This document shows positions 8,365 through 63,916 of a stretch of 64,000 nucleotides of DNA, in pieces. A program made the translations under genes and the position numbers. Origin of the DNA: Solibacillus sp. FSL H8-0538 (lineage in GTDB: Bacteria > Bacillota > Bacilli > Bacillales_A > Planococcaceae); the NCBI RefSeq assembly GCF_038003525.1, contig NZ_JBBOPI010000001.1, positions 425,001-489,000 on the forward strand, given 5' to 3'. Every line of letters starts with the position of its first letter. The stretch's first letter is position 1. The notes under the pieces are model-generated. The model ran no database searches. It was not told the DNA's origin and was given only the letters and a program-made list of their open reading frames with translations.

Positions 8365-8643
8365 GAACGCGCTGACATTCAACGAACGCACCAAGAATCC
8401 CCGCGAACGCACTGAGTGGGGCTGTGAACGAACTAAGTGTCCAGCAGAACGAACTAACCTGGCCCACGAACGCACCAACATTCAACGAACGCACCAAGAA
8501 TCCCCGCGAACGCACTAAGTGGGGCTGTGAACGAACTAAGTGTCCAGCAGAACGAACTAACCTGGCCTGCGAACGCACCAAGAATCCCCACGAACGAACG
8601 AAATTCCTACAAACGCACCAAATTACCCCCAAAAACGCACTAA
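8365..8643 (+). repeat. phased repeat array A (motif GAACGNACNAA)
   Basis: Fourteen copies of an 11-nt motif, consensus GAACG(C/A)AC(C/T)AA, begin at 8365, 8384, 8405, 8426, 8447, 8468, 8487, 8508, 8529, 8550, 8571, 8592, 8611 and about 8633. Spacings are mostly 21 nt, with 19-nt steps at regular places. Bases 8384-8486 form a 103-nt block that is nearly repeated from 8487. Reading frames through the array are artefacts: they have no ribosome binding sites, and the 103-nt period shifts frame every block. It fills the divergent gap between the vWA gene and ctaB. Confidence 0.9.
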
Positions 8644-18365: not shown

Positions 18366-19322
18366 ATGAAAGGAGCTGAAACGCACGCGGTGATTACTTT
18401 GCGACGGGTAATACCCGAAAAAGTAAACGTATTACAAAGCGTGCTCAAACGTTTATCGGCCGTAGATGAGGAATATACCAATTTGCAAGAACAGCTAAGG
18501 AGAGCACGAACAGGCTATGCTGGTGAACAGCGTATTGATGAATTGTTGGATGGAGTACCGCTACTGGACTCCGCGCACATCTTATGTGACGTAGAATTAA
18601 TGCAGCACCCGATTGATTGTTTAATTATAACGACAAGCTTTGCACTAATTTTAGAAGTAAAAAATATTTCTGGTCGAATTGATATTGATGATTCGAAACA
18701 CCAATGCATTCGCACGCGACTCGATGGAACACTTGAACCATTTTCCAACCCTACAGATCAAGCACGTAAATACCAACTCTTTATACAGCATTTATTTCAA
18801 CAATGGAATGTCCAGCTACCGGTTGAATGTGCCGTAGTATTTGCAAACCATAAGCTTATTTTAGGCAATATCACAAGCGATGTGCCGCTATTTCACGTTA
18901 GTGGCCTAACTTATCGTATTCACCAATTTTTTCAAAAATACCCCGAAAAGCTATCATGCAACCAAGTCACTAATATTGCAGACAAATTAAAATCGCTGCA
19001 TACACCGTATCAATGGCAACTAAAAACGGCACGGCACAAACTGCGAACTGGTGTGCTTTGTGAAAGATGCAATAAAGTGATGCATTATTTAAAAGGAAGT
19101 TGGCAATGTGAAAGCTGTCAGTTTAATAGCGACGCAGCCTTAGTACAGGCAATGCAAGACTACCGCCTCATTTGGAACCATAAAATCACAAACCGCGAAT
19201 TTCGCCACTTCACAGGCATAGAAAGCATCTACACCGCCAACTATTTACTCAAGAAACTAAACTTTAAAAGCGAAGGCAAATTTAAAGACAAAGTATATTT
19301 GATTGAAAAACGAAGTGACTAA
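18366..19322 (+). CDS. NERD-domain protein with C-terminal zinc ribbon
   Basis: A 318-residue protein. Residues about 50-165 are a nuclease-related (NERD) domain: GYAGEQRIDELL near 50-61, then HPIDCLIITTSFALILEVKN with the PD-(D/E)XK-like D...E-x-K arrangement near 85-100. Near 240-260 two CxxC pairs (CERC and CESC) form a probable zinc ribbon, and a C-terminal helical domain follows. NERD proteins are suspected DNA-processing enzymes, but a function for this one is unproven. The start is uncertain: ATG 18366 has no clear site, while GTG 18390 has GGAG 15 nt upstream. Confidence 0.8.
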   Translation: MKGAETHAVITLRRVIPEKVNVLQSVLKRLSAVDEEYTNLQEQLRRARTGYAGEQRIDELLDGVPLLDSAHILCDVELMQHPIDCLIITTSFALILEVKNISGRIDIDDSKHQCIRTRLDGTLEPFSNPTDQARKYQLFIQHLFQQWNVQLPVECAVVFANHKLILGNITSDVPLFHVSGLTYRIHQFFQKYPEKLSCNQVTNIADKLKSLHTPYQWQLKTARHKLRTGVLCERCNKVMHYLKGSWQCESCQFNSDAALVQAMQDYRLIWNHKITNREFRHFTGIESIYTANYLLKKLNFKSEGKFKDKVYLIEKRSD

Positions 19323-19340
19323 AATCACTTCGTTTTTTCT
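19310..19340 (+). terminator. intrinsic terminator of the NERD gene
   Basis: ACGAAGTGA (19310-19318) pairs with TCACTTCGT (19325-19333), followed by T. It overlaps the last codons of the gene. Confidence 0.85.
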
Positions 19341-19364
19341 TTTTGAGGAGATTTTTTAGGGGAT

Positions 19365-20514
19365 GCAAGTAAAGCTGCTGGAGTTGCAAGTAAAGCTGCT
19401 AGAGTAGCAAGTAAACGCCAAGAATTTGCAAGTAAATCAGAAGATCTTGCAAGTAAAATGAAAGGTTGCAAGTAAAGCTGCTGAAATTGCAAGTAAACCA
19501 AAGAATGTTGCAAGTAAAAGACCAGAGTTTGCAAGTAAATCAGTAGATCTTGCAAGTAAAATGAGAGGATGCAAGTAAAGCTGCTGAAATTGCAAGTAAC
19601 CCAAAGAATGTTGCAAGTAAAAGACAAGAGTTTGCAAGTAAATCAGAAGATCTTGCAAGTAAAATGAGAAGATGCAAGTAAACCTGCTGAAATTGCAAGT
19701 AAACCAAAGAATGTTGCGAATAAAAGACCAGAATTTGCAAGTAAACCAGAAGATCTTGCAAGTAAAATGAGAGGATGCAAGTAAACCTGCTAGAATTGCA
19801 AGTAACCCAAAGAATGTTGCAAGTAAAAGACCAGAGTTTGCAAGTAAACTAGAAAATCTTGCAAGTAAAATGAGAGGATGCAAGTAAACCTGCTAAAATT
19901 GCAAGTAACCCAAAGAATGTTGCAAGTAAAAGACCAGAGTTTGCAAGTAAACTAGAAAATCTTGCAAGTAAAATGAGAGGATGCAAGTAAAGCTGCTGAA
20001 ATTGCAAGTAACCCAAAGAATGTTGCAAGTAAACGCCAAGAGTTTGCAAGTAAATCAGAAGTTCTTGCAAGTAAAATTGGAGGATGCAAGTAAACCTGCT
20101 AGAATTTTCAAGTAACCCAAAGAATGTTGCAAGTAAACGCCAAGAGTTTGCAAGTAAATCAGAAGTTCTTGCAAGTAAAATGGGAGGATGCAAGTAAACC
20201 TGCTGAAGTTGCAAGTAACCCAAAGAATGTTGCAAGTAAAAGACCAAAGTTTGCAAGTAAATCAGAAGATCTTGCAAGTAAAATGAGAAGATGCAAGTAA
20301 ACCTGCTAGAATTGCAAGTAACCCAAAGAATGTTGCAAGTAAAAGACAAGAGTTTGCAAGTAAATCAGAAGATCTTGCAAGTAAAATGAGAAGATGCAAG
20401 TAAACCTGCTAGAATTTTCAAGTAACCCAAAGAATGTTGCAAGTAAAAGACCAAAAGTTACAAGTAAATCTAAAAATAGTGCAAGTAAACCAGAAAATTG
20501 TGCAAGCAAATCAA
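19365..20514 (+). repeat. phased repeat array B (motif GCAAGTAAA, 103-nt blocks)
   Basis: About 56 copies of GCAAGTAAA. Five units spaced 21, 21, 21, 21 and 19 nt make a 103-nt block. Blocks begin at 19365, 19468, 19571, 19674, 19777, 19880, 19983, 20086, 20190, 20293 and 20396. All steps are 103 except one of 104, caused by GC-to-TTC in one unit. The 10-12 nt between motifs differ among the five units but are conserved from block to block. The last block keeps 21-nt steps and decays. It lies between two convergent genes and is bounded on both sides by their terminators. On the minus strand the motif has no stop in any frame, which creates meaningless long frames. Confidence 0.95.
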
Positions 20515-20543
20515 AAAAGAGCTTCGCAAAAATTGCGAAGCTC
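20511..20543 (-). terminator. terminator of the ABC-F gene
   Basis: GAGCTTCGCAA (20519-20529) pairs with TTGCGAAGCTC (20533-20543); on the minus strand the T-run is TCTTTTTT. It abuts the end of array B. Confidence 0.9.
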
Positions 20544-20551
20544 CCGAAATC

Positions 20552-22132
20552 CTATTCCAAATCCAATTCAGCAGTTTTACCTGTTGTGAACCAATCTTGT
20601 ACGTTCCAAACTTTCGTTACTAAACCATCATAAAATTCAGGTTCATGGGATACGAGAATAATTGTGCCTTTGAATTCTTTCATCGCACGTTTTAATTCCT
20701 CTTTCGCATCAACGTCTAAGTGGTTGGTCGGTTCATCGAAAATTAAGCAGTTGGCCTCATCCATCATTAATTTACATAGACGCACCTTTGCTTGTTCGCC
20801 ACCTGATAATGAATTCAGTGGGCGCGTGATGTGGTCAGTTTTTAGACCTGCTTTTGCAAGTGCACCCCGAATTTGTGCTTGATCCATGGAAGGGAAAGCA
20901 TCCCACACATCATCAATTGGTGTAATTTTATCTGCTTTTACTTCTTGCTCGAAGTAAGAAGGGGCAAGGTAGTCACCTAAGATTACTTTTCCGTCTAGCG
21001 GTTTAACTTTGCCAAGCATTGTTTTTAGTAGTGTTGATTTACCTACACCATTCATGCCGACAAGGGCGATTTTTTCTCCGCGCTCAATCATGAATGAAAG
21101 AGGAGGTAATAACGGTTTTTCTTTATCGTAGCCGATTACAAGATTTTCAGCTTCTACGACGAAACGACTAGGCGTGCGAGCTTCTTTAAAGCGGAACTCT
21201 GGTTTTACAGCTGTTTCTGGACGGTCGATACGTTCTAGACGGCCAAGTTGTTTCTCACGAGATTTTGCACGACCTGAAGTTGAGTAGCGTGCTTTATTTT
21301 TCGCAATGAAATCTTCTTGCTTTTTAATAAAGTCTTGTTGTTTTTCATACGCGTCAATATGCTGGCGTTTATTAATTTCGGCAAGCTCCATAAACTTTTC
21401 ATATGTTGCTGTGTAGCGCGTTAATTTTGAAAATTCTAGTTGGAAAATAACGTCGACTGTTTCATTCATAAATTCTGTATCATGGGAAATTAATAAAAAT
21501 GCGTGTGGATAGTTTTTAAGATAGTTTTTTAACCAAGTAACATGCTCTTCATCCAGATAGTTGGTAGGCTCATCTAGAAGTAACACTTTTGGTTTTTCTA
21601 ATAATAGTTTTGCTAGTAATACTTTCGTACGTTGACCACCTGAAAGTGCTGAAACGTCGCGGTCTAATCCGATTGCATCAAGACCAAGTCCGCGTGCAAC
21701 CTCTTCAATTTTCATATCAAGCGTATAGAAGTCACCGGCATCTAGTGCGTCTTGAACTTCTGCCATATCATCTAGTAATGCTTCTAATTCTTCCGGCGTT
21801 GCGTCGGCCATTTTTGCTGCGATTTCATTTAATTCTTCTTCCTTTTTATAGAGAGGAAGGAATGCATCGCGAAGTGCATCGCGCATTGTGCGACCTGGTG
21901 TTAGTACTGTGTGCTGGTCCAAATAGCCGTAATGCGTGCCTGGAAGCCATTCGACTTTTCCATCATCATGAATTGTTTGACCTGTAATGATGCTCATCAT
22001 TGTTGATTTACCAACGCCGTTTGCACCAACAAGTCCGATGTGATCGCCTTCGACTAAGCGAAATGATACATCTTTAAATAGTGTGCGGTCACCGAAAGAA
22101 TGACCTAAATTTTCAACTGTTAAAATTGCCAT
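20552..22132 (-). CDS. ykpA: ABC-F family ATPase, YkpA/YbiT-like
   Basis: A 526-residue protein of two ABC domains in one chain with no membrane part: Walker A GANGVGKST near 35 and GMNGVGKST near 350, signatures LSGGQRTK near 165 and LSGGEQAK near 443, and Walker B LLLDEPTNYLD and LIFDEPTNHLD. The linker between them is rich in charged residues (about 240-310), as in ribosome-binding ABC-F proteins. By sequence feel it is the orthologue of B. subtilis YkpA. ABC-F proteins act at the ribosome, in translation or antibiotic protection; this branch is not a known resistance factor. Start ATG 22132 with GGAGGA upstream. Confidence 0.88.
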   Translation of the reverse strand: MAILTVENLGHSFGDRTLFKDVSFRLVEGDHIGLVGANGVGKSTMMSIITGQTIHDDGKVEWLPGTHYGYLDQHTVLTPGRTMRDALRDAFLPLYKKEEELNEIAAKMADATPEELEALLDDMAEVQDALDAGDFYTLDMKIEEVARGLGLDAIGLDRDVSALSGGQRTKVLLAKLLLEKPKVLLLDEPTNYLDEEHVTWLKNYLKNYPHAFLLISHDTEFMNETVDVIFQLEFSKLTRYTATYEKFMELAEINKRQHIDAYEKQQDFIKKQEDFIAKNKARYSTSGRAKSREKQLGRLERIDRPETAVKPEFRFKEARTPSRFVVEAENLVIGYDKEKPLLPPLSFMIERGEKIALVGMNGVGKSTLLKTMLGKVKPLDGKVILGDYLAPSYFEQEVKADKITPIDDVWDAFPSMDQAQIRGALAKAGLKTDHITRPLNSLSGGEQAKVRLCKLMMDEANCLIFDEPTNHLDVDAKEELKRAMKEFKGTIILVSHEPEFYDGLVTKVWNVQDWFTTGKTAELDLE

Positions 22133-25300: not shown

Positions 25301-25337
25301 AACTAGCCAAAATTAGGATTTTGGCTAGTTTTTTTAT
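25301..25337 (+). terminator. intrinsic terminator of the FMN reductase gene
   Basis: AACTAGCCAAAAT (25301-25313) pairs with ATTTTGGCTAGTT (25318-25330), then seven T. Confidence 0.92.
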
Positions 25338-25527
25338 TGTTAAAGAAATTATAAAATTTCGCATTGTAGATAATATTTTAATAAGTATATGTGACACCTA
25401 GGCGAAAGCGCCAGCCCCTCAAGGTTGCGGTCTGCCCTCTGGCGAAAGTTGTGGAGATTTTACTTTCACTTCGGGCTCGCAAGCAGCTTGTCGGGGCTAA
25501 GCAGGCGCTGTAGCACTTTTGTTCTTA
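25337..25527 (+). repeat. GC-rich dispersed repeat with AT-rich leader, full copy
   Basis: Starts ATTGTTAAAG, followed by AAATTATAAAATTTCGC, and contains GCGAAAGCGCCAGCCCC ... GTCGGGGCTAAGCAGGCGCT, an imperfect dyad that closes a long hairpin. Ends GCACTTTTGTTCTTA. The same arrangement recurs at 57750-57938, and truncated at 31030-31114. Such intergenic repeats are common in Bacillaceae; I cannot give a formal name. Confidence 0.8.
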
Positions 25528-31029: not shown

Positions 31030-31114
31030 TTGTGAAGGAAATTATAAAATTTCCCCATGTGGATAATATTCAAATAAGTAAATGAAACGTCTAGTCGAAA
31101 GCGCCAACCCCTTT
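31030..31114 (+). repeat. GC-rich dispersed repeat, truncated copy
   Basis: The AT-rich leader (GAAGGAAATTATAAAATTTC and CATGTGGATAATATTCAAAT) and the first arm CGAAAGCGCCAACCCC are present, but the rest is missing. Confidence 0.75.
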
Positions 31115-47767: not shown

Positions 47768-48397
47768 GCAAGTAAAGTTGCTAAAAGTGCAAGTAAACCA
47801 AGAAATATTGCAAGTAAAAGAGCAGAGTTTGCAAGTAAATGGAGCTATCTTGCAAGTAAAAAAGTTGGGTGCAAGTAAAGCTGCTAAAAGTGCAAGTAAA
47901 CCAAGAAATGTTGCAAGTAAAAGAGTAGAGTTTGCAAGTAAATGGAGCTATCTTGCAAGTAAAAAAGAAGGATGCAAGTAAAGCTGCAAAAAGTGCAAGT
48001 AAATTAAGAAATGTTGCAAGTAAAAGAGTAGAGTTTGCAAGTAAATGGAGCTATCTTACAAGTAAATAAGAAGGGTGCAAGTAAAGCTGCAAAAAGTGCA
48101 AGTAAACCAAGAAATGTTGCAAGTAAAAGAGCAGAGTTTGCAAGTAAATGGAGCTATCTTGCAAGTAAAAAAGTTGGGTGCAAGTAAAGCTGCAAAAAGT
48201 GCAAGTAAATTAATAAATGTTGCAAGTAAAAGAGCAGAGTTTGCAAGTAAATGGAGCTATCTTGCAAGTAAAAAAGAAGGATGCAAGTAAAGCTGCAAAA
48301 AGTGCAAGTAAATTAAGAAATGTTGCAAGTAAAAGAGCAGAGTTTGCAAGTAAATTTAGTTTTCTTCCAAGTAAACCAAGCTTTCCTACAAATAAAA
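47768..48397 (+). repeat. phased repeat array C (motif GCAAGTAAA, 103-nt blocks)
   Basis: About 31 copies of GCAAGTAAA. Blocks begin at 47768, 47871, 47974, 48077, 48180 and 48283, every step exactly 103 nt, with internal spacings 21, 21, 21, 21 and 19. Inter-motif sequences match those of array B position by position (for example CCAAGAAATGTT here and CCAAAGAATGTT there in unit 2), so the two arrays descend from one block. The last block decays with 21-nt steps (CCAAGTAAA, ACAAATAAA), as in array B. It lies between the amidohydrolase operon and the LysE gene, both on the minus strand. Confidence 0.95.
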
Positions 48398-49307: not shown

Positions 49308-49342
49308 AAAAAAGAGGCATCCATAAAGGATGCCTCTTTTGC
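49308..49342 (-). terminator. terminator of the cold-shock gene
   Basis: AAAGAGGCATCC (49311-49322) pairs with GGATGCCTCTTT (49328-49339), T-rich on the minus strand. It may act in both directions. Confidence 0.85.
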
Positions 49343-49372
49343 GCCTAAGTATTTTAACTTAATTCCTAAGAA

Positions 49373-49573
49373 TTAAAGTTTAGTTACGTTAGTAGCTTGT
49401 GGTCCACGGTTACCGTCTTCAACTTCAAATTCAACTTTTTGACCTTCGTCAAGTGATTTGAAACCTTCGCCTTGGATAGCTGAGAAGTGTACGAACACGT
49501 CGTTACCGCCTTCAACTTCGATAAATCCAAAACCTTTTTCTGAGTTAAACCATTTTACTGTACCTTGTTCCAT
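49373..49573 (-). CDS. cold-shock protein, CspA/CspB family
   Basis: A 66-residue single OB-fold RNA chaperone. RNP1 KGFGFIEV (13-20) and RNP2 VFVHFS (26-31) are intact, with aromatic residues at the nucleic-acid face. It binds single-stranded RNA and DNA and melts structure at low temperature. GGAGG lies before the ATG. The gene has a 5' leader of about 140 nt containing a strong hairpin (49626-49679), typical of cold-regulated csp genes. Confidence 0.95.
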
Positions 49574-49625
49574 GTGAGAAAACCTCCAAAAAATAAAATT
49601 AATCCAATTCCTTCAGTGATGTAAA

Positions 49626-49679
49626 AATTCACATATTAGAAAAGCGAGCGAACACGTTCACTTTTTTAATATGTGAATT
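49626..49679 (-). promoter_or_regulatory. hairpin in the csp 5' leader
   Basis: AATTCACATATTA (49626-49638) and TAATATGTGAATT (49667-49679) form a 13-bp perfect stem. The loop contains GAACACGTTC, itself a partial palindrome. It lies in the transcribed leader of the cold-shock gene and may act as a temperature-responsive structure (inference). Confidence 0.6.
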
Positions 49680-57696: not shown

Positions 57697-57751
57697 AGAT
57701 AAGTAAGGACAGCATCTCGCCCTATTTTGGGCGAGATGTGTCTTTCTAATT
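57697..57751 (+). repeat. dispersed palindromic repeat, copy 8 (best-preserved)
   Basis: CATCTCGCCC and GGGCGAGATG form a perfect 10-bp stem around TATTTT (about 57713-57738), flanked by TAAGTAAGGACAG and GTGTCTTTCTAAT. It runs directly into a GC-rich repeat copy. Confidence 0.9.
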
Positions 57752-57938
57752 GTTAAGGAGATTATAAAACTTCGCCATGTGGATAACATTCAAATAAGTA
57801 AATGCTACGTCTAGGCTAAAGCGCCAGCCCCTCGAGGTCGCGGTCTGCCCTCGGGCGAAAGTGGTGGAGCGTTTACTTTCGCTTCGGGCTCGCAAGCAGC
57901 TGTCGGGGCTAAACAGGCGCTTTAGCGCATTTGTTCTT
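57750..57938 (+). repeat. GC-rich dispersed repeat, full copy
   Basis: The AT-rich leader (TTGTTAAGGAGATTATAAAA) and body (TAAAGCGCCAGCCCC to GTCGGGGCTAAACAGGCGC) are both complete. Near-identical to 25337-25527. Confidence 0.85.
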
Positions 57939-63862: not shown

Positions 63863-63916
63863 TGCAAGTAAATTTGCTAATTGTGCAAGTAATCTTGGGA
63901 ATGTTTGCACGTAAAC
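63863..63916 (+). repeat. short trace of the GCAAGTAAA array (D)
   Basis: GCAAGTAAA at 63863, GCAAGTAAT at 63884 and GCACGTAAA near 63906, with 21-22 nt steps. The sequences between them (GCTAATTGT, GGGAATGTT) resemble units 1 and 2 of blocks in arrays B and C. Only three units remain. Confidence 0.75.

Follow-up and report, generated by a model that had tools for sequence, protein, structure and literature searches.

The question raised by this locus is what keeps a 9-mer (GCAAGTAAA) in a two-level periodicity, five units to a block, over 1.1 kb between two convergent genes. We analysed a stretch of 64,000 nucleotides (the window; contig NZ_JBBOPI010000001.1, positions 425,001-489,000) from Solibacillus sp. 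FSL H8-0538 (the source genome), in which these repeats, designated array A, fill the intergenic region separating a NERD-domain gene from an ABC-F-type gene. The features of the gap are as follows.

18366 to 19322, + strand: NERD-domain gene (318 aa) upstream of array A; context, outside the element.
19305 to 19338, + strand: hairpin of 14 pairs resembling an intrinsic terminator (pattern match), at the end of the NERD-domain gene and facing array A.
19365 to 20510, + strand: array A, 56 GCAAGTAAA sites (45 exact), with steps of 21, 21, 21, 21 and 19 bp and ten block steps of 103 or 104 bp.
20517 to 20545, − strand: hairpin of 13 pairs resembling an intrinsic terminator (pattern match), at the end of the convergent gene and facing array A.
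20552 to 22132, − strand: ABC-F-type gene (526 aa), convergent, downstream of array A; context, outside the element.

The 56 sites are those with up to two mismatches from GCAAGTAAA, not counting a 57th match at 20506 that overlaps the final site. The figure of about 56 recurrences in the original prediction is therefore correct when variants are counted, but not for exact copies. The spacing of 21, 21, 21, 21 and 19 that it had described was recovered among the 55 steps (43 of 21 bp, ten of 19 bp and two of 22 bp), as were its blocks, which start at 19365, 19468 and so on up to 20396 in nine steps of 103 bp and one of 104 bp. Tandem Repeats Finder reported a period of 103 with 10.9 copies and 91% matches at 19361-20489. 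Exact GCAAGTAAA 9-mers numbered 74 in the whole window, compared with a mean of 0.40 (maximum 3) in 50 windows shuffled in 1-kb blocks. The two terminator-like sites around array A compare with 1.6 expected from shuffles, and their weight lies in their length and position. The ABC-F-type neighbour has two ABC domains with an ABC_tran_Xtn linker, and a search of genome contigs found no relatives of the NERD-domain neighbour.

Three arrays additional to that of the original prediction were found in the window.

8365 to 8643, + strand: array with a second core, GAACGMACYAA; 14 sites with up to two mismatches, steps of 21 and 19 bp, period 103.
47768 to 48396, + strand: array B, GCAAGTAAA core in 103-bp blocks, the last sites degenerate.
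63864 to 63915, + strand: remnant array of three GCAAGTAAA-like sites, with steps of 21 and 22 bp.

The consensus sequences of arrays A and B agreed at 44 of 45 core positions and at 39 of 58 spacer positions. In the whole source genome (3.93 Mb), exact GCAAGTAAA pairs at 21 bp lie at three places, 60 on the forward and none on the reverse strand, and GAACG-type pairs (up to two mismatches) are dispersed, with 32 forward and 19 reverse. There are at least 17 array places, all on one contig (17 were used here, two of them with three sites only); the 60 GCAAG and 51 GAACG-type pairs are all on the main contig, and the second contig (0.19 Mb) has none. Of 261 family genomes, only the source genome had exact GAACGMACYAA pairs. 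The source genome has two different cores with the same geometry.

Runs of three to four copies of an 8-mer at exactly 21 bp with unlike spacers were also seen for TGGGATTG, TTTATTCR, TATCTATC and TCTCGTAT, at L046:2762, L059:8764 and L060:1330 in the source genome and, for TCTCGTAT, at L159:129 in the Psychrobacillus genome G174; these are perhaps further core classes. Apart from the arrays, we noted a separate interspersed repeat family with copies 81-91% identical (window 25330-25526, 31030-31112 and 57743-57938; L060:8844-9082) and a cspA thermoregulator RNA (Rfam RF01766) at window 49308-49649 on the − strand.

The core and the spacers have diverged to very different degrees. Differences per site pair were 0.0235 in the core and 0.113 in the spacer of array A without its first block, and 0.0089 and 0.100, respectively, in array B. 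Among five pairs of related elements, which were picked for likeness and two of which include L093, the core differed at 2 of 240 positions and the spacers at 134 of 390. The core is almost fixed, and the spacers drift; equal conservation of both, which the original prediction had named as evidence against itself, was not found. Its claim that the 9-mer is conserved against different neighbours beyond the effect of tandem duplication holds for the 21-bp level but not for the 103-nt block, which is an ordinary tandem duplication (91% matches). The description of a VNTR, in which all positions of the unit are roughly equally alike, largely fits the 103-bp block but not the 21-bp unit. Position profiles of Fictibacillus and Psychrobacillus units gave 1.2-2.0 bits at the first eight core bases and mostly less than 0.4 bits in the spacer, except just before the core, where the sequence is A/T-rich and then YC (Fictibacillus and Ureibacillus). 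A/T-only patches one turn apart lie inside the unit in Fictibacillus and also in the pooled Ureibacillus and Bacillus 522 units.

The second such outcome, arbitrary spacing in related genomes, was not observed either: four-fold 8-mers with unlike spacers gave 2,338 matches at lag 21 and 15 at lag 42 (from overlapping loci), and none at lags 17, 19, 20, 22, 23, 31 and 32. A three-copy scan gave 175 clusters at lag 21, 169 of them with known cores, compared with none at lags 19 and 23, three at lag 20 and one at lag 22, these four with known cores. The sole clear exception to 21 bp was Neobacillus niacini (L079), which has 12 GCAAGTAAA copies, mostly at 20 bp and with like spacers. When each distinct spacer was counted once per set, 331 of the 373 steps between 15 and 28 bp were of 21 bp, followed by 19 bp (27), 22 bp (five), 20 bp (four), 18 bp (two) and other lengths (four). 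The 19-bp steps sit in several unrelated spacers (GAACG arrays, Ureibacillus and Bacillus 522), with the reservation that the 19-bp step is copied by tandem duplication and that arrays A and B may have one origin.

The pooled best-fit period was 10.30 bp in three sets representing two cores and several genera. Coherence at 10.30 and 10.5 bp was 0.87 and 0.09 in the three source GCAAG arrays, 0.94 and 0.62 in the six source GAACG arrays, and 0.70 and 0.30 in eight arrays from Ureibacillus, Bacillus 522 and Psychrobacillus (L111). The pools comprise 17 of 21 arrays, those of L067, L079 and L155 having been computed but not pooled. The mean helical repeat was 10.27-10.44 bp in the nine source arrays and 10.09-10.42 bp in the twelve others; the arrays off 10.3 bp were two of Ureibacillus L070 (10.17 and 10.19), Neobacillus L079 (10.09), one of the two Psychrobacillus L067 arrays (10.42) and source L054 (10.44). 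Note that many arrays are related by descent, so that their steps and contexts are partly non-independent. B-DNA in solution has about 10.5 bp per turn. Relative to a 10.3-bp lattice, each 21-bp step drifts by about 0.4 bp, and one −2 step in five therefore cancels the drift; the reset at every fifth site in the original prediction is an example of the −2 corrections that hold about 10.3 bp per turn. The geometry agrees with its proposal of recognition sites on one DNA face with a periodic reset; the binding of a protein to these sites is the part that we infer.

The tandem pattern was searched in the family genomes, as the original prediction had proposed, and the exact GCAAGTAAA pair at 21 bp was found in 16 of 261 genomes and five of 19 genera, the reversed control pattern giving at most one match per strand per genome. 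Triples of GCAAGTAA were found in 16 of the 261 genomes and six of the 19 genera. Among these family genomes, the Ureibacillus and Kurthia groups were assigned by their matching spacers. When triples were searched across 84,980 species, each represented by one genome, 42 loci were found. Those in Bacillales were from Psychrobacillus psychrodurans, P. antarcticus, Ureibacillus, Kurthia sibirica and two Fictibacillus, with further loci in Metabacillus indicus, Neobacillus niacini and Bacillus sp. 522_BSPC, and four outsiders were from Francisella, Chitinophagaceae, Avigastranaerophilus and Prevotella. The Kurthia, Francisella, Prevotella and Avigastranaerophilus loci have identical or nearly identical spacers and are ordinary tandem repeats; the spacers of the Chitinophagaceae locus are partly varied. 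Sites of GCAAGTAA at 21 bp with mostly unlike spacers occur in Psychrobacillus, Ureibacillus, Fictibacillus, Metabacillus and a Bacillus. The triple pattern gave nine loci in viral contigs, six with like or compound repeat units (L113, L115, L116, L117, L118 and L120) and three with three sites and partly repeated spacers (L112, L114 and L119). A BLASTN search with array A found no match among plasmids (72,556 records) or phages (50,697 records), which is a weak test as the spacers are free.

The anatomy of a single element could be read in Fictibacillus. Twenty stretches of Fictibacillus FJAT-27399 contain 22 elements anchored by a leader (consensus TTTATGAAAATGATGTGTTTT). Exactly six units follow the leader in 21 of these, and the remaining element scores seven units under a loose rule; the count of six holds also for two elements with differing core letters. 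The second element of L121 in this genome has the leader and six units, with the cores GCACGTAA, GCATGTAA, GCATGAAA and GCAAGTAA. Fictibacillus terranigra has 33 GTGAGTAA pairs in addition to 22 GCAAGTAA pairs, and none of eight other genomes searched had a GTGAGTAA pair. The GTGAGTAA core is found at 15 places beside GCAAGTAA and with the same leader; in these stretches, the common leader is followed by six units in 10 of 16 elements (15 stretches chosen for GTGAGTAA, plus L093) and by three to five units otherwise. The set also contains cores intermediate between the two (GCGAGTAA and GGGAGTAA), and the last unit has CA at core positions 2-3 in 5 of 13 elements having at least five units. 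The GTGAGTAA core suggests that the core and its putative binder can change together. Note that the Fictibacillus stretches were chosen by GCAAGTAA pairs (20) or GTGAGTAA pairs (15), which may favour complete elements. A BsrG-like RNA (Rfam RF01412), barely over the gathering score, was also seen in Fictibacillus (L071:3704-3992, − strand).

By manual count, 31 of the 48 Psychrobacillus elements are 111-115 bp long, corresponding to six positions at 21 bp, with some sites unrecognisable and many of the elements being tandem or orthologous copies. In one subfamily, conservation extends into the flanking sequence on either side, and paralogues appear alike over about 60 bp upstream and about 80 bp downstream (by eye). 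The leader is documented only for Fictibacillus (two species); a looser resemblance was judged by eye in Psychrobacillus, and arrays A and B have no leader. A strict search for the leader with two units found none in 398 genomes of the class, a sample that included the source genome and excluded the studied array-bearing Psychrobacillus and Fictibacillus genomes except G004.

Of 67 elements, 29 lie in convergent gaps, whereas 50 of the 303 remaining gaps (40 bp or longer) at the same loci are convergent; this count relies on a rough ORF caller and one element per cluster, takes window gaps twice in the baseline (per core class) and includes some mutually orthologous Psychrobacillus loci. Over five genomes with dnaA located, 66 of 83 places pointed with the replication fork (G274 with at least four places, the G030 contig taken as 4.0 Mb and neighbouring matches merged by hand). 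The fraction for genes was 0.67-0.85 in four of the five genomes, so that this orientation is not above the gene baseline and alone shows nothing. Elements in convergent gaps pointed with the fork in 13 of 15 cases (four genomes), a bias that gene direction does not account for in such gaps; with such small numbers, the alignment is suggestive. The corresponding counts were 8 of 12 in tandem gaps and 3 of 5 in divergent gaps, and the 12 elements between tandem genes were oriented with the genes in seven cases and against them in five. The ten neighbours of five source arrays were NERD, ABC-F, amidohydrolase, LysE, TerF-like vWA, UbiA, rubrerythrin, DUF2339, CTP synthase and DUF2529. There was no common theme among the commonest 25 of 189 neighbour families, counted from 117 of 145 neighbours, the remainder, including very long genes and some orthologous copies, having been omitted.

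The elements also turn over. At one Psychrobacillus locus, the element was present in 2 of 18 species (G172 and G022) but not in G174; the flanking genes of G172 and G174 share 97% identity. No array of another core was found there in the 16 species without the element. Array places number 21 in G172 and 32 in G174. Elsewhere, different species retain elements at orthologous loci, and the CTP synthase/DUF2529 neighbourhood has a GAACG array in the source genome (L054), its counterpart in P. psychrodurans (L064) having a GCAAG element. Element copies are gained and lost, which keeps a mobile-element reading in play. Near the element site, the gaps of several Psychrobacillus species (L161, L162, L164 and others of L161-L178) have a GATTTCCGCTTCAGGCGGACGCTTTCCGC-like repeat, as seen by eye.

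The original prediction knew of no named element with this design, in agreement with our searches of Rfam and of the open literature, in which the matches listed included no description of the array family or of the GCAAGTAAA or CGCAAGTAA repeat. CRISPR arrays have repeats of at least 23 bp, spacers of similar length and cas genes. The present arrays are CRISPR-like in having a leader, a constant repeat and differing spacers, but differ in the 9-bp repeat, the 12-bp spacer, the drift by substitution and the near-constant number of units (FJAT-27399); we rejected this assignment on the 9-bp core, the 10-12 bp spacers and the lack of cas genes among ten neighbour proteins scanned. A structured RNA family was rejected because there was no Rfam match at the gathering threshold and the arrays fold no better than shuffles. 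Clusters of transposase sites at Mu or Tn7-like ends are direct sites of about 22 bp that lie in phase; by eye, no second end or target duplication was seen in the Psychrobacillus and Fictibacillus flanks. Iteron origins contain helically phased direct repeats that recur about every 17-22 bp, and the arrays have such a period and phase. As in the iterons of theta plasmids and the RctB 12-mers of Vibrio chromosome 2, short sites lie head to tail about two turns apart; the arrays differ in their many chromosomal copies and in 21-bp steps with −2 corrections. A replication origin of this type was rejected, since there is no initiator (Rep) gene among the ten neighbours of five source arrays, and one origin per replicon is contradicted by at least 17 places on one contig (21 in G172 and 32 in G174). 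The minimal origin ori2 of Vibrio has six head-to-tail 12-mers with 10 or 11 bp between them (PMC6090056). The STAR elements of staphylococci, the function of which is given as unknown, are built on a GC-rich 14-mer whose copies are separated by 40 bp or more (PMC3532100). They share with the arrays interspersed intergenic direct repeats, locus-specific spacers and positions that differ between species (PMC3532100), whereas the arrays have an 8-11 bp core, 8-13 bp between cores, helical phasing and a six-unit element; the core and spacing do not match the STAR definition in that source. The arrays are nearest to iterons in design and to STAR elements as a genome phenomenon, and belong to neither.

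We consider it about 60% probable that the arrays are binding sites arranged along one face of double-stranded DNA, polar and probably cooperative, with a role much less certain than the geometry. Array A would belong, in amplified form, to a family of polar elements of double-stranded DNA, whose unit would be a conserved 8-11 bp core with a largely free spacer, one per two helical turns. A putative sequence-specific protein would bind each core from the same face and touch its neighbour, and six units (usual in Fictibacillus) or longer runs would form one continuous nucleoprotein rod. The two-turn spacing, re-phasing, free spacers and lack of an RNA fold point to a protein on one DNA face, and the maintenance of register in runs as long as 56 sites points to cooperativity. 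The elements are dispersed over the chromosome, enriched in convergent gaps and polar, head to tail. Their position at gene ends suggests a local role as barrier or organiser, and we would guess that the rod acts there as a roadblock, an insulator or a chromosome-organising site. Their patchy presence (16 of 261 genomes; 2 of 18 Psychrobacillus species at one locus) is odd for a chromosome function and argues against it.

A serious, though unlikely, alternative is a non-autonomous mobile element, in which the phased cores would be transposase or recombinase sites and the leader a terminus, with spread in trans and long arrays arising by later amplification. Dispersed paralogues with a common leader (Fictibacillus) or alike flanks (Psychrobacillus), the patchy distribution, the locus occupied in G172 and G022 but not in G174, and the two core classes side by side in F. 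terranigra are all in its favour. However, the Psychrobacillus and Fictibacillus flanks listed showed by eye no clean empty site, terminal inverted repeat or target duplication, the Fictibacillus elements have no conserved 3' end, some elements occupy orthologous places between species, and a transposon end needs no re-phasing over 12-56 sites. Mobility is compatible with binding sites on one DNA face and does not exclude them, as both need a binder. It is improbable that the arrays are chromosomal iteron clusters that titrate or handcuff the replication initiator of a plasmid or chromid. The Vibrio chromosome 2 origin has six 12-mers, with RctB sites elsewhere that titrate the initiator (PMC6090056), and the Fictibacillus element has six 8-mers with 13 bp between them; against this, none of the listed GCAAG and GAACG-type pairs lies on the second contig, array A matched no plasmid or phage record (a weak test, as noted), and none of the ten neighbours scanned is a Rep protein.

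The suggestion in the original prediction that the unit acts as RNA was not supported, and transcribed arrays with the motif as a protein or sRNA decoy are very improbable. Although the motif is A-rich and strand-specific, the leader before the first unit could be a promoter, and four + strand promoter-like matches lie inside array A (five in the region on both strands; expected 2.8, s.d. 1.6), eleven folds gave z from −1.24 to +2.69, Rfam at the gathering threshold gave no match on the arrays of the window and 14 relative loci, and array A is flanked by facing terminator-like hairpins; moreover, two-turn spacing with −2 corrections is apparently meaningless for an unstructured RNA. Slightly less probable again is a functionless satellite shaped by tandem duplication and drift. 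The 103-bp level is indeed a tandem duplication, and Kurthia and three of the four outsiders are tandem repeats, but this reading is largely refuted by the core and spacer divergence (2/240 versus 134/390); the same core with unlike spacers in separate genera and the constant six-unit count in FJAT-27399 also speak against it. Hardly credible, finally, are protein-coding heptad repeats, for which 21 bp would be seven codons, GCA AGT AAA reading A-S-K and GAA CGM ACY reading E-R-T. GAACGMACYAA varies mainly at would-be third codon positions, and Fictibacillus stops are below spacer shuffles in four of six frames (frame 0: 7 versus 18.1), but this depletion is alike in two forward and two reverse frames, Psychrobacillus has 65 stops in the same frame versus 35.7 expected, and the supposed wobble positions are almost only A/C and C/T (in units found with that pattern). 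The 19-bp steps also break the frame. We rejected a coding reading, and the array is non-coding, as originally proposed.

Returning to polar binding sites on one DNA face, we tentatively propose, at appreciably less than even odds, that the arrays represent an undescribed class of chromosomal nucleoprotein track. A protein would polymerise on one DNA face with two turns per subunit on six-site polar elements, −2 bp corrections would keep the register up to 1.1 kb, the elements would be sited between convergent genes and point there with replication, and the core and putative binder would change together (GCAAGTAA, GTGAGTAA and GAACGMACYAA). If the elements are mobile instead, they would be unusual non-autonomous elements with a nearly fixed internal site count. 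The occurrence of GTGAGTAA beside GCAAGTAA with the same leader in F. terranigra makes co-evolution of binder and site testable. If a protein binds, the arrays would be a natural ruler recording the helical repeat that DNA adopts when protein-bound, 10.30 bp per turn, and would predict a cooperative DNA-binding protein in culturable Bacillales.
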